Below are positions 9,187 to 12,226 of a DNA stretch of 64,000 bases, piece by piece. Source of the stretch: Desulfosarcina widdelii (GTDB taxonomy: Bacteria; Desulfobacterota; Desulfobacteria; Desulfobacterales; Desulfosarcinaceae); NCBI RefSeq assembly GCF_009688965.1, contig NZ_AP021875.1:4898001-4962000 (forward strand), written 5' to 3'. The notes beneath the pieces were generated by a model. The model was given only the letters and a program-made list of their open reading frames with translations, had not been told where the DNA came from and made no database searches. A program made the translations under genes and the position numbers. How positions within the stretch are numbered: position 1 is the stretch's first letter; every line of letters starts with the position of its first letter.

Positions 9187-10371
9187 ATGAGAGATGCATA
9201 TATCGTTTCGTCCGTCAGGACACCCGGATGCCGGCGCGGCAAAGGGGCTTTGAAAGATACCCGCCCCGAGGATCTGCTCTCCTTCATCATGAAGGCTGCG
9301 GTCGAAAAAGCCGGCTCCATCGAACCCAAGGATATCGACGATGTCATGATCGGCTGCTCCTTTCCCGAGGCGGAACAGGGACTCAACATCGGCCGGCTGG
9401 CTAACCAGATCGCCGGCTTTCCCATCACCGTTTCCGGCGCTACCGTCAACCGCTTCTGCTCCTCCGGCCTGGAAGCCATTGCTCTGGCCTCTCTGCGGGT
9501 CATGGCCGGCTGGTCTGAAATGACCTTGGGCGGCGGCGTGGAATCCATGACTTACGTTCCCATGGGCGGCAATCTGCCCCGCCCTCATCCCGAACATTGC
9601 AGGGCCCAGGCGGATCTGTACTGCTCCATGGGCATCACCGCGGAGAACGTGGCCAACCGTTACAACGTCACACGCGAGGACCAGGACGCCTTTGCCTACG
9701 AATCACAGATGAAGGCCACCAAGGCCCAGAAGGAAGGCCTGTTCACCGAGATCGTACCCACACCGGCGGCCAAGTTCGTCCTTCAGGAAAACGGCACCTA
9801 TAAAAAGGAAACCTTCCTTCAGGATTTCGACGACGGCGTTCGCGCCACCACGACTCTGGAGGGATTGGCCAAACTGCGGGCCGTATTCGCCGCCGGAGGA
9901 TCGGTCACCGCCGGCAATTCCTCCCAAACCACTGACGGAGCGGCAACCAGCATTATTGCCAGCGAAAAAGCCGTCAAGAAATTTGGTCTCAAGCCTATCG
10001 CCAAGCTGAAGATGTACACCACCGTAGGCTGCGAGCCGGATGAAATGGGCGTGGGGCCTCGTTATGCCATTCCCAAGCTGTTGGATCTGGCCGGCATGAA
10101 GACCAGCGACATCGGCCTTTGGGAAATCAACGAGGCCTTTGCTTCCCAGGCCCTCTACTGCATCCGCGAGCTGGGCCTCGAGAACAGCATGGATATCATC
10201 AACATCAACGGCGGCGCCATCGCCCTGGGCCACCCCTTGGGATGCACCGGCGCCAAACTTTGCGCCACCCTGTTGGCCAACATGCAGCGCAAGGGCGTCA
10301 AGTACGGTGTGGAGTCCATGTGCATCGGCGGCGGCATGGGAGCCGCGGCACTTTTCGAGCTTTGCGACTAA
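9187..10371 (+). CDS. fadA: acetyl-CoA acyltransferase (3-ketoacyl-CoA thiolase)
   Basis: The thiolase cleaves 3-ketoacyl-CoA with CoA to acetyl-CoA and a shortened acyl-CoA, the last step of beta-oxidation. The 394-residue length is standard. The nucleophilic Cys lies in [12 protein letters not shown] near residue 90, the His in [16 protein letters not shown] near residue 350, and the second Cys in [10 protein letters not shown] near residue 380. AAGGAGG precedes the ATG. It is co-transcribed with fadN and followed by a strong terminator. No acyl-CoA dehydrogenase gene follows, so the first oxidation step must be encoded elsewhere. Confidence 0.95.
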
Positions 10372-10411
10372 ACCATTTGATATAAAAAGAAAAAAACAAA
10401 TATAATCGTAT

Positions 10412-10456
10412 AAAAATCAATCAGGCTGCCTTTTTCGGGCGGCCTGATTGATTTTT
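10412..10456. terminator. bidirectional-looking intrinsic terminator after fadA
   Basis: The arms AAAAATCAATCAGGC (10412-10426) and GCCTGATTGATTTTT (10442-10456) form a perfect 15-pair stem that can extend inward by a few more pairs. A run of T lies at the 3' end in both orientations. It lies 40 bases after the fadA stop. Confidence 0.85.
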
Positions 10457-10522
10457 AAGGTTTGCATGTTCGGAAGACCTGTGATAGTTGCAAAATTGTT
10501 CGATCCAAAAAGGAATCTCGTA

Positions 10523-10603
10523 ATGCTTCTCTCAGCAGGCACAAACGCATTTTATTTCGGTTATTATTTTTATTTCAGCCGAGGTGCGCCTGTGGTTCGC
10601 TGA
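10523..10603 (+). CDS. aromatic leader peptide of the DAHP synthase attenuator, 26 aa
   Basis: This short frame starts with ATG, preceded by AAGGA at eight bases, and encodes 26 residues. Nine consecutive codons, 10550-10576, read F-Y-F-G-Y-Y-F-Y-F: four Phe and four Tyr, followed by S-R-G-A-P and a TGA stop at 10601-10603. This is the hallmark of amino-acid leader peptides such as PheL and PheM of enteric bacteria. The end of the frame overlaps the 5' strand of a possible antiterminator (10588-10597). Scarcity of charged Phe- or Tyr-tRNA would stall the ribosome and let downstream transcription continue. A possible promoter (TTGCAT and GATAGT) lies at about 10467-10495. Confidence 0.85.
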   Translation: MLLSAGTNAFYFGYYFYFSRGAPVVR

Positions 10604-10639
10604 TTTTTTGATAACAAGGAAAGCGTAAAAGCCGCAGGC
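10588..10639 (+). promoter_or_regulatory. antiterminator pairing of the DAHP synthase attenuator
   Basis: Segment GCCTGTGGTT (10588-10597, inside the last codons of the leader peptide) can pair over all ten positions, with two G-U pairs, with AGCCGCAGGC (10630-10639), which is the 5' arm of the following terminator. The two structures are therefore mutually exclusive. A protector hairpin around 10576-10602 (CAGC with GCTG, AGG with CCT) could form when the ribosome finishes the leader peptide, freeing the terminator arm. Confidence 0.75.
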
Positions 10640-10660
10640 AAAAAAGCCTGCGGCTTTTTT
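10627..10660 (+). terminator. attenuator terminator upstream of the DAHP synthase gene
   Basis: The arms AAAAGCCGCAGGC and GCCTGCGGCTTTT form a 13-pair stem with a six-A loop, followed by a T-run. It lies 24 bases after the leader-peptide stop and 41 bases before the DAHP synthase start. It is therefore placed to stop transcription before the gene and not to end a preceding one, which already has its own terminator at 10412-10456. Confidence 0.88.
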
Positions 10661-10700
10661 ATTTGTGAAACACCATTGAAAACCGGAAAGGAGCATCGGC

Positions 10701-11792
10701 ATGCAAAAGACCTATGACATTCGCGTAGCGAAATTCGAACCGCTGATTTCACCCGCTCAACTGAAGGAAGATCTTCCCCTGACCGAAGCGTCCTATGGCA
10801 CGGTGGTGGAAGGGCGCAAGGCGATTGCCGACATCCTGGAGGGAAAGGATTCCCGGATGCTGGTGATTACCGGCCCCTGCTCCATCCACGACGAGGCGGC
10901 GGCCATGGATTACGCCCGACGGCTGCGCGAATTGAGCGCAAGGGTTGCGGAAACCATGCTGCTGGTCATGCGGGTTTATTTCGAAAAACCGCGCACCAAT
11001 GTGGGGTGGAAGGGTCTGATCAACGATCCCCGGTTGGACGGGAGCTACGATATCAACGCCGGGCTGAAGCGGGCGCGCCACCTTTTGCTGGACATTACCG
11101 ACATGGGTCTGCCTACCGCCACCGAACTGCTGGACCCCATCGTTCCCCAGTACATTGCCGGACTGGTCTGCTGGGCCGCTATCGGCGCGCGCACCACCGA
11201 ATCCCAGACCCACCGGGAGATGGCCAGCGGCCTTTCCATGCCGGTCGGCTTCAAGAACTGTACGGACGGCGACCTGTCCACAGCGGTCAATGCCATGATC
11301 GCCGCCGGATCGCCCCAGCATTTTCTGGGCATCGATCCCGACGGAAAGTCTTGCAGCGTTACCACTACCGGCAATCCTCACGCCCATCTGGTGCTGCGCG
11401 GCGGAAGCCGTCCCAATTACGATTCGGTCAGCATCGGCGAAGCCCGGGGGATACTGGAAGATAAAGGGGTGGCCCGGGCGATCATGGTCGATTGTTCCCA
11501 TGGCAATTCCAGAAAAAACCACGCCCTTCAGGCCTCGGTCTGGCAGGATGTCATCAACCAGCGTCTGGACGGCAACGATGCCATTATCGGCATGATGCTG
11601 GAGAGCAATCTCGAGGCAGGCAATCAGAAAAACACGGGGGATTTGCAGGCTTTGCAATACGGGGTGTCCATTACCGATGCCTGCATCGATTGGGAAACGA
11701 CCGAACGATTGATTTTATCGGCCCATGAGCAGTTGGTCGGCACGACTGAGTCCGATGGGGGCAACTTTTCCGGTCGATATAAAGTCGCCTAG
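10701..11792 (+). CDS. 3-deoxy-7-phosphoheptulonate (DAHP) synthase, class I AroFGH type
   Basis: The enzyme condenses phosphoenolpyruvate with erythrose 4-phosphate, the entry step of the shikimate pathway. The 363-residue protein shows GPCSIHD near residue 60, RVYFEKPRTNVGWKG near 95, PTATELLDP near 140, and the metal-binding region VDCSHGNSRK near 265. Length and N-terminal extension fit the feedback-regulated AroF/AroG/AroH group; which amino acid inhibits it cannot be read from sequence. AAAGGAG precedes the ATG. Upstream lies an attenuator rich in Phe and Tyr codons, pointing to control by those amino acids. Its stop overlaps the convergent gene's stop. Confidence 0.95.
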   Translation: MQKTYDIRVAKFEPLISPAQLKEDLPLTEASYGTVVEGRKAIADILEGKDSRMLVITGPCSIHDEAAAMDYARRLRELSARVAETMLLVMRVYFEKPRTNVGWKGLINDPRLDGSYDINAGLKRARHLLLDITDMGLPTATELLDPIVPQYIAGLVCWAAIGARTTESQTHREMASGLSMPVGFKNCTDGDLSTAVNAMIAAGSPQHFLGIDPDGKSCSVTTTGNPHAHLVLRGGSRPNYDSVSIGEARGILEDKGVARAIMVDCSHGNSRKNHALQASVWQDVINQRLDGNDAIIGMMLESNLEAGNQKNTGDLQALQYGVSITDACIDWETTERLILSAHEQLVGTTESDGGNFSGRYKVA

Positions 11793-12226
11793 CGCACGAC
11801 ACCGCCATGGGATTCGATCATGGTCCTCAGGCTCACGAAGTTGGCGCGGACGGTTACCATCTGCAGCCAGATACCGGCAACTTCGAATCCGTTTCTGGAC
11901 TGGCGGATGTCGACCTTGAACGGGTAGGGATACTGGCGGTCGATTTCGGGAATAATGATGTCGAAGCGGATCGATCCATCCTGGCGCCCCTTGTAGGTGA
12001 AAATGCGGTTGCCGATATTCACTTGTTTGCCCAGCTCGAGGACACGCGTCTCTTTGGAAAAACCGATACTGGCGGTATCGGTTTTCGGCAAGGTCATTTT
12101 GCGGCCGAAAAAAGTGGTTGGATCCACATTGCCGGTGGTCAGATAGATTAACGAGGCGCTGAACATGATGCCCACGACGCCAAAGAAAAGAATGACAACC
12201 CACTTATATGCTTGTGTGCTTTCCAT
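11789..12226 (-). CDS. small membrane-anchored protein, 145 aa
   Basis: One N-terminal membrane helix (residues about 9-30, WVVILFFGVVGIMFSASLIYL) is followed by a predicted extracytoplasmic domain with alternating strands (GNRIFTYKGRQDGSIRFDIIIPE). There is no lipobox. AGGAG lies five bases before the ATG. I do not recognise the family. Its stop codon overlaps that of the convergent DAHP synthase gene, with no terminator between, so transcripts from both sides may run into each other. Confidence 0.7.
   Translation of the reverse strand: MESTQAYKWVVILFFGVVGIMFSASLIYLTTGNVDPTTFFGRKMTLPKTDTASIGFSKETRVLELGKQVNIGNRIFTYKGRQDGSIRFDIIIPEIDRQYPYPFKVDIRQSRNGFEVAGIWLQMVTVRANFVSLRTMIESHGGVVR

Follow-up and report, generated by a model that had tools for sequence, protein, structure and literature searches.

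A probable ribosome-mediated attenuator with a phenylalanine- and tyrosine-rich leader peptide before the DAHP synthase gene of Desulfosarcina widdelii, and similar leaders at the entry step of aromatic biosynthesis

In enteric bacteria, the trp, his, thr and ilv attenuators follow a logic of 1:2, 2:3 and 3:4 pairing, and the thr and ilv leaders read more than one amino acid. The DAHP synthase genes of E. coli are instead controlled by the TyrR and TrpR repressors. The first-pass annotation of the locus described here drew its contrast with this repressor control, but a precedent from C. glutamicum was missing from it. There, a leader containing Phe-Tyr-Phe, aroR, precedes aroF (PMC11802643; PMC4046766), and expression is described in a review as responding to Phe and not to Tyr (PMC11802643). 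Putative attenuators originating from Merino's website are also given in Table 7 of PMC1173090, the part of that source used here, for Desulfovibrio vulgaris, ahead of aroA'-aroB'-aroQ-pheA-aroF-tyrA-trp, and for two Vibrio species, ahead of aroA I-alpha(Y)-tyrA. Thus, as far as these portions of the sources go, attenuation at a DAHP synthase gene or at an operon for ADH synthase (2-amino-3,7-dideoxy-D-threo-hept-6-ulosonate synthase) is not new. In the open PMC literature we found no account that joins both attenuator kinds or describes the leader family, and a term search within PMC2965389 and PMC545781 returned no aromatic leader in the text it covered.

The locus lies in a window of 64,000 nucleotides (G000:C1:4898001-4962000) of the 7.3-Mb genome of Desulfosarcina widdelii; coordinates refer to this window, and the elements described between 10415 and 11792 are on the + strand. 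The gene proposed to be regulated (10701-11792) encodes a class I-alpha DAHP synthase of the AroF/G/H type with 363 amino acids, whose score of 473 bits against TIGR00034 (cut-off 173.2) confirms the enzyme named in the first-pass annotation. It is apparently monocistronic, the next ORF (11789-12226) being on the opposite strand. Upstream, a thiolase-like ORF (9187-10371, named from its own sequence) is followed by a terminator-like hairpin (10415-10453) that divides it from the attenuator; a fold of 10415-10462 has 17 pairs and -28.1 kcal/mol (z -7.4, none of 200 shuffles as good). Then comes a promoter-like block, TTTGCAT...TGTGATA (10461-10486), a putative promoter of the leader RNA on account of its conservation in the genus, where TGCAT and T[GA]TGnTA occupy the identical position in 9/9 aligned loci. 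The promoter consensus scanner left this block unflagged and flagged instead a near-consensus sigma-70 match (11/12; 10377-10406) between the thiolase stop codon and the terminator of that gene. This match was rejected as the leader promoter because it precedes the strong hairpin at 10415-10453, and the conserved block was preferred. From the block, transcription would start near 10494 and the short transcript would measure roughly 165-170 nt. A start downstream of 10660, named beforehand as an observation that would speak against an attenuator, is thereby made improbable, as the putative promoter sits upstream of the leader.

The leader peptide, MLLSAGTNAFYFGYYFYFSRGAPVVR, comprises 26 codons (10523-10603), from an ATG at 10523-10525 to a TGA at 10601-10603, and its type is conserved in relatives. 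It is preceded by a Shine-Dalgarno-like AAGGA (10510-10514), with AAGG or AGGA also found before the leader in genus relatives, and it carries the regulatory codon run F-Y-F-G-Y-Y-F-Y-F (10550-10576). The motif, the frame and the run had all been described earlier and are present in the sequence. Rarity of the codon run was dropped as evidence by itself, since the Phe/Tyr codon pattern (6 of 7) is not unusual genome-wide, with 12 matches in 7.3 Mb versus 20 for the reversed control; the codon run is insufficient, and the attenuator stands above chance because of its structures and their conservation.

Three mutually exclusive RNA structures can be drawn at the locus. The intrinsic terminator 3:4 (10627-10661) has a stem at 10627-10658 with 13 pairs, eight of them G-C, and a loop of 6, followed by a T-rich tail; the pair number and the tail agree with the first-pass annotation, which however took the element to 10660, beyond the end of the stem. 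The piece 10614-10665 folds at -24.3 kcal/mol (z -4.6, 0/200 shuffles as good). In the antiterminator 2:3, segment 2 (10588-10597) pairs with segment 3 (10630-10639), a portion of the terminator 5' arm, and all ten positions are paired as had been claimed, two of them as G-U; the fold of 10585-10645 reaches -24.5 kcal/mol (z -4.5, 1/200 shuffles as good). The third structure, not named in the first-pass annotation, is a protector hairpin 1:2 (10532-10603; -24.8 kcal/mol, z -4.2, 0/200 shuffles) which, according to the fold, can sequester segment 2. Its 5' side, segment 1 (10532-10550, with the core at 10536-10543 in the model), is defined by this fold, by the model alignment and by covariation of the core helix. 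A short hairpin at 10575-10603 taken alone is within chance (z -0.70, 40/200 shuffles). The energies of protector, antiterminator and terminator are nearly equal, which fits the need of a switch.

The last aromatic codon (10574-10576) is separated from segment 2 by 11 nt, so that a ribosome held at the run should leave segment 2 free and one that has gone on to the stop codon should sit on it, the coverage being predicted from the size of the ribosome footprint. From the leader, the three exclusive stems, the covariation of the stems and their distribution, we infer a transcription start, ribosome positions, amino acids sensed and a direction of response as follows. RNA polymerase would start near 10494 and a ribosome would load at 10523. 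With charged Phe-tRNA and Tyr-tRNA in good supply, this ribosome would reach the stop codon and cover segment 2, segments 3 and 4 would pair, and transcription would end near 10661. Under a shortage of charged Phe- or Tyr-tRNA, the ribosome would instead stall within 10550-10576 and cover segment 1, segment 2 would be free to form 2:3, the terminator would be blocked, and the DAHP synthase gene would be transcribed. Without translation, the 1:2 hairpin would form and termination would be favoured. The locus shares with attenuators of the trp/phe/his type a leader ORF with a ribosome-binding site, a run of pathway codons, a Rho-independent terminator, an exclusive antiterminator with paired changes (by cells, score and permutation, not by the number of pairs) and a protector hairpin whose 5' side would be covered by the stalled ribosome. 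It is therefore very probably a ribosome-mediated transcription attenuator of the trp/phe type, with the same leader family at the entry step in relatives and a second copy at pheA-aroE, and the window folds, the ortholog leaders and the covariation all support the attenuator proposed in the first-pass annotation. A T-box riboswitch was rejected for lack of an Rfam T-box match, none being found at the gathering score in the window or among the weak matches in 10480-10700. Indeed, an Rfam scan of the window gave no family at its gathering score.

Relatives of the window enzyme were found by protein search in 34/60 near genomes and in 166/389 genomes of the class, some of the matches being weak. 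An ortholog set of 107 loci was then formed from 30 near-genome loci and 80 class regions, minus the copies L007, L008 and L025. A codon-run score, defined as an open window of 12 codons with at least six Phe, Tyr or Trp codons at most 420 nt upstream, is reached by 97 of the 107. By codon run or covariance model a leader is present at 99, as one locus that passes the score has no match to the model, called R1 (L139), and three below the score do match it (L014, L138, L182). Related genomes devoid of Phe/Tyr runs and of alternative stems would have counted against the attenuator; instead, these features are present at 99/107 ortholog loci, and no leader was found at the other eight (L009, L022, L033, L127, L128, L131, L139, L179). 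The earlier scope of control "in this phylum" is too narrow, since such leaders stand before ADH synthase and pheA as well, and too wide, given the 8/107 loci without one. Among 69 more distant homologs, mostly from other phyla (one, L069, is titled Deltaproteobacteria, and three have short or no upstream sequence), five reach the codon-run score: L047 in Latescibacterota, L067 in Vibrio, L081 in Photobacterium, and L077 and L084 in Mastigocoleus. The Latescibacterota DAHP synthase has a leader, YRYFYFYFYYAF, and a terminator with unrelated arms, scores 19.5 bits with R1 and perhaps had an independent origin. The three DAHP synthase paralogs in the window's own genome (L002-L004) have no comparable run (scores 4, 5 and 4) and no R1 match. 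Some loci show duplications: a second terminator, whose 5' arm often resembles the first, follows the first at L020, L028, L039, L129, L130, L133, L141, L190 and L202, and class I-alpha DAHP synthase genes are in tandem at L133, L134 and G047:C302; for the second copy at L133 and L134 the scan detected no separate aromatic-run leader.

After removal of duplicates there were 98 distinct leader regions, of which L019, L039, L047 and L140 were excluded by hand as atypical, and the remaining 94 were aligned (A1). Because the aligned rows are related, the covariation and permutation figures that follow give no clean probability. For the terminator, 93.6% of cells are paired, with 66 double-change cells versus a shuffle mean of 20 and a double change in 9 of the 13 pairs versus a mean of 3.8, and 0/500 shuffles were as high on any measure. 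For the antiterminator, 79.7% of cells are paired, with 51 double-change cells versus 23.4 (0/500 shuffles) and a covariation score of 0.193 versus 0.150 (0/500); its seven pairs with a double change are not above shuffles (303/500 reach that number), and its pair types are not clearly above them (54/500). The protector core is paired in 76.6% of cells and has 38 double-change cells versus 14.6 (0/500 shuffles); its number of pairs with a double change was reached by 28/500 shuffles, and its pair types are not above chance (158/500). When one partner was slid by 1-3 columns, pairing fell to 32-58% for the terminator and antiterminator, the 57.7% of the terminator when shifted by +1 being due to its stretches of T and A, and to 29-38% for the protector. 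In parallel, the duplex of segment 2 with its own arm averages -18.7 kcal/mol versus -16.5 (sd 0.26) with permuted arms, and 0/2000 permutations did as well. Unguided RNAalifold on the 94 rows predicted the terminator only, as expected for stems that exclude each other.

The model R1 was built solely from A1, and terminators on the reverse strand alone score up to 45 bits with it. It finds a second match in the window's genome (G000:C1:3969290-3969436; 75 bits, E 1.3e-11) with the leader MQRFTTGRFFYFYYFFSEGLPGAR, which has six Phe and three Tyr codons. This copy (L237, G000:C1:3966500-3970200) precedes pheA-aroE, which it would control; the pheA product reaches 254 bits as a prephenate dehydratase (cut-off 219), its chorismate mutase part staying below the cut-offs, and the aroE product 265 bits (cut-off 200.2). 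Weaker matches of 38-50 bits occur elsewhere before tyrS, class I-beta DAHP synthase, a trpE-like gene and pheA. The tyrS leaders (L273, L279 and L282, of the YYYCGYY type; two of the three genes were model-tested) have six or seven Tyr and at most one Phe. The class I-beta leaders (L280, L281, L284) have Phe only, end in RSVHPV or similar and form a separate leader type, and the leader of the trpE-like gene has WWWW, the best models for this gene, which is cut by the locus end, being below their cut-offs. As 38-50 bits overlaps the reverse-strand terminator scores, it is the codon runs that speak for the tyrS, I-beta and trpE leaders; the weak matches L275, L287 and L285 come with neither a plausible leader nor a plausible gene. 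Judged from the sequences, the codon runs fit the controlled gene, the pheA, tyrS, class I-beta and trpE-like leaders each differing accordingly.

The codon content of the DAHP-synthase leaders bears on which amino acids would be read. With six duplicates included in the count, Tyr is present in 104/104 leaders, Phe past position 3 in 97/104 and Trp in 42/104. The distance from the last aromatic codon to the antiterminator core is 8 or 11 nt in 78/94 aligned leaders, a measure that fails in nine rows where the peptide extends past the aligned stop. The central codon of the run is TGG in 27 cases, CGG in 7, AGG in 6, GGG in 5, GGT (the codon of the window) in 4, GGC in 4 and others in about 20; the TGG was set aside as proof of Trp sensing, because its two G's are base-paired in the inner hairpin as well and the rows are not independent of each other. 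Joint sensing of Phe and Tyr by the leader peptide, as put forward in the first-pass annotation, is what we infer from these codons. An attenuator effectively sensing one amino acid, for instance Phe, with Tyr codons tolerated and not read, would resemble C. glutamicum, where Tyr availability is reported as without effect despite the Phe-Tyr-Phe in aroR (PMC11802643, in the part consulted), and it would agree with the general argument in a portion of PMC1183508 that sensitivity depends on where a codon lies with respect to the control site. It is nonetheless unlikely, given how constantly both residues appear in the leaders and given that, within the same order, the tyrS leaders go to Tyr and the I-beta leaders to Phe, which makes the mixture specific to the entry step.

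The end of the peptide raises another alternative, in which a nascent peptide with a P-x-V-R-stop tail would stall the ribosome on a free aromatic amino acid in the manner of TnaC. The tail is conserved, as Pro lies within the last 8 residues in 86/94 distinct DAHP-synthase leader peptides, but the codons for it make up segment 2 and change in step with the terminator arm, so that its conservation is explained at the RNA level; the tail residues moreover vary (VVR, GVR, VLR, VVC) and the codon runs track the gene product, and such an arrest peptide is highly improbable compared with a leader read through its codons in an attenuator.

The attenuator leader is not confined to DAHP synthase genes. 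At E <= 0.01, R1 has matches in 335/389 genomes of the class and 224/395 of the phylum, weak matches included, and in 50 loci read in detail the downstream gene is often ADH synthase, which opens an alternative route to dehydroquinate, with the genes at L238 and L295 passing TIGR01949 at 357.7 and 363.7 bits (cut-off 299.45). Among 19 class loci chosen from R1 matches without a DAHP synthase behind them (L238-L256), 18 have ADH synthase behind the leader and the nineteenth stops at a contig edge. The 150 class matches listed comprise 79 before DAHP synthase, 49 before ADH synthase and 22 unassigned, and 14 of the unassigned ones lie in genomes numbered above those in the ADH-synthase listing, the search for which covered 331 genomes. 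Among the matches listed, strong DAHP synthases occur in 145 genomes, strong ADH synthases in 126, and both in three. A separate alignment of 29 ADH-synthase leaders (A2) shows the same three structures: 89.4% of antiterminator cells are paired, with 5 double-change cells versus 1.8 (5/500 shuffles; 75/500 for pairs), 92.8% of terminator cells (0/500) and 89.7% of protector cells (0/500 on cells and score). Phe and Tyr are present in 29/29 of these leaders and Trp in 19/29. At L288, L292 and L295 the operon order is ADH synthase - DHQ synthase II - pheA, where the second gene of L292 passes the DHQ synthase II model and the other names are by similarity. Further R1-type leaders in the phylum sample stand before genes for chorismate synthase, for a shikimate-kinase-like protein and for class I-beta DAHP synthase. 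One genome that carries class I-alpha DAHP synthase (G744) also has, at L272, a DHQ synthase II gene behind a Phe/Tyr leader, as if the operon had lost ADH synthase. At L231 and L235 such leaders precede an ADP-forming CoA-ligase-like gene (below cut-off, truncated), perhaps for salvage of aromatic acids.

In this setting, the leader RNA could be taken for the product of an independent gene, for a small RNA or a small protein, that lies before the DAHP synthase gene by chance, since it comes with its own putative promoter and strong terminator. This is extremely unlikely, since it stays beside aromatic-pathway genes over many families while the downstream gene changes, and its conserved alternative pairing would have no role. 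The likeness between the two leader groups could also be due to convergence rather than common descent, because leaders of either group are bound to encode aromatic residues and to form pairs with a terminator arm, and the L047 leader with its different arms indicates that such leaders can arise separately. Against this, R1 derives from DAHP-synthase leaders, yet its highest class score among the matches listed (134 bits) belongs to a leader before ADH synthase (MTQNFSGSYYSYFWYYFYNTGLPGVR, L238; compare the DAHP-synthase leader MQRDLSGRRFFYFWYYYFNTGLPGVR, L180), arms and tail (GLPxVR-stop) are the same in both groups although other arms would serve, and the tyrS, I-beta and trpE leaders of the same order have other tails and lower scores; we thus regard convergence as improbable. 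These sequence comparisons suggest that the leaders of DAHP synthase and ADH synthase share an origin and that one enzyme was swapped for the other. At the DAHP-synthase and ADH-synthase loci examined there are no neighbours in common beyond aromatic genes, which leaves an in-place swap of the entry enzyme without support. With moderate confidence we favour a single homologous leader family that governed aromatic entry across the phylum, sensed Phe, Tyr and often Trp through one peptide, and outlasted its enzyme as the step passed between ADH synthase with DHQ synthase II and DAHP synthase; the two copies in the window's lineage, at DAHP synthase and at pheA-aroE, would fit an ancestral operon that was split with duplication of its leader. 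Members of this family would today read Phe and Tyr, and many of them Trp too, and would control the entry step through either DAHP synthase or ADH synthase.

If this is true, a regulatory RNA has been more lasting than the enzyme it controls, and replacement by an unrelated pathway could be traced through a fixed control element. The leaders would also form a comparative set (Phe and Tyr with or without Trp at the entry enzyme, Phe-rich at pheA, Tyr at tyrS, Trp at trpE) in which codons report how each enzyme is tuned, testable in culturable sulfate reducers, and they would offer a practical aid for annotating aromatic-pathway genes in metagenome-assembled genomes.

Compared with known systems, the window uses the same 1:2/2:3/3:4 logic as the enteric trp, his, thr and ilv attenuators, with other codons and other genes. 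It resembles the enteric pheL-pheA and pheM-pheST attenuators in its Phe-rich leader, its terminator and its alternative pairing before aromatic-pathway genes, and it falls outside the Rfam family Phe_leader (RF01859), scoring 21.9 bits versus a gathering score of 55. With aroR of C. glutamicum, as described in the consulted parts of the reports, it shares a leader with Phe-Tyr-Phe before a DAHP synthase gene and a rise in transcription upon stalling at the codons; aroR differs in having three aromatic residues versus eight here, in belonging to another phylum and in being reported as responsive to Phe only. Table 7 of PMC1173090 comes close in predicting an attenuator before ADH synthase (aroA') in a related member of the phylum and others before DAHP synthase, its entries being given without a leader peptide, a cross-species comparison or a link between both kinds of gene. 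The part of interest here is one leader family at the entry step ahead of two different enzymes.
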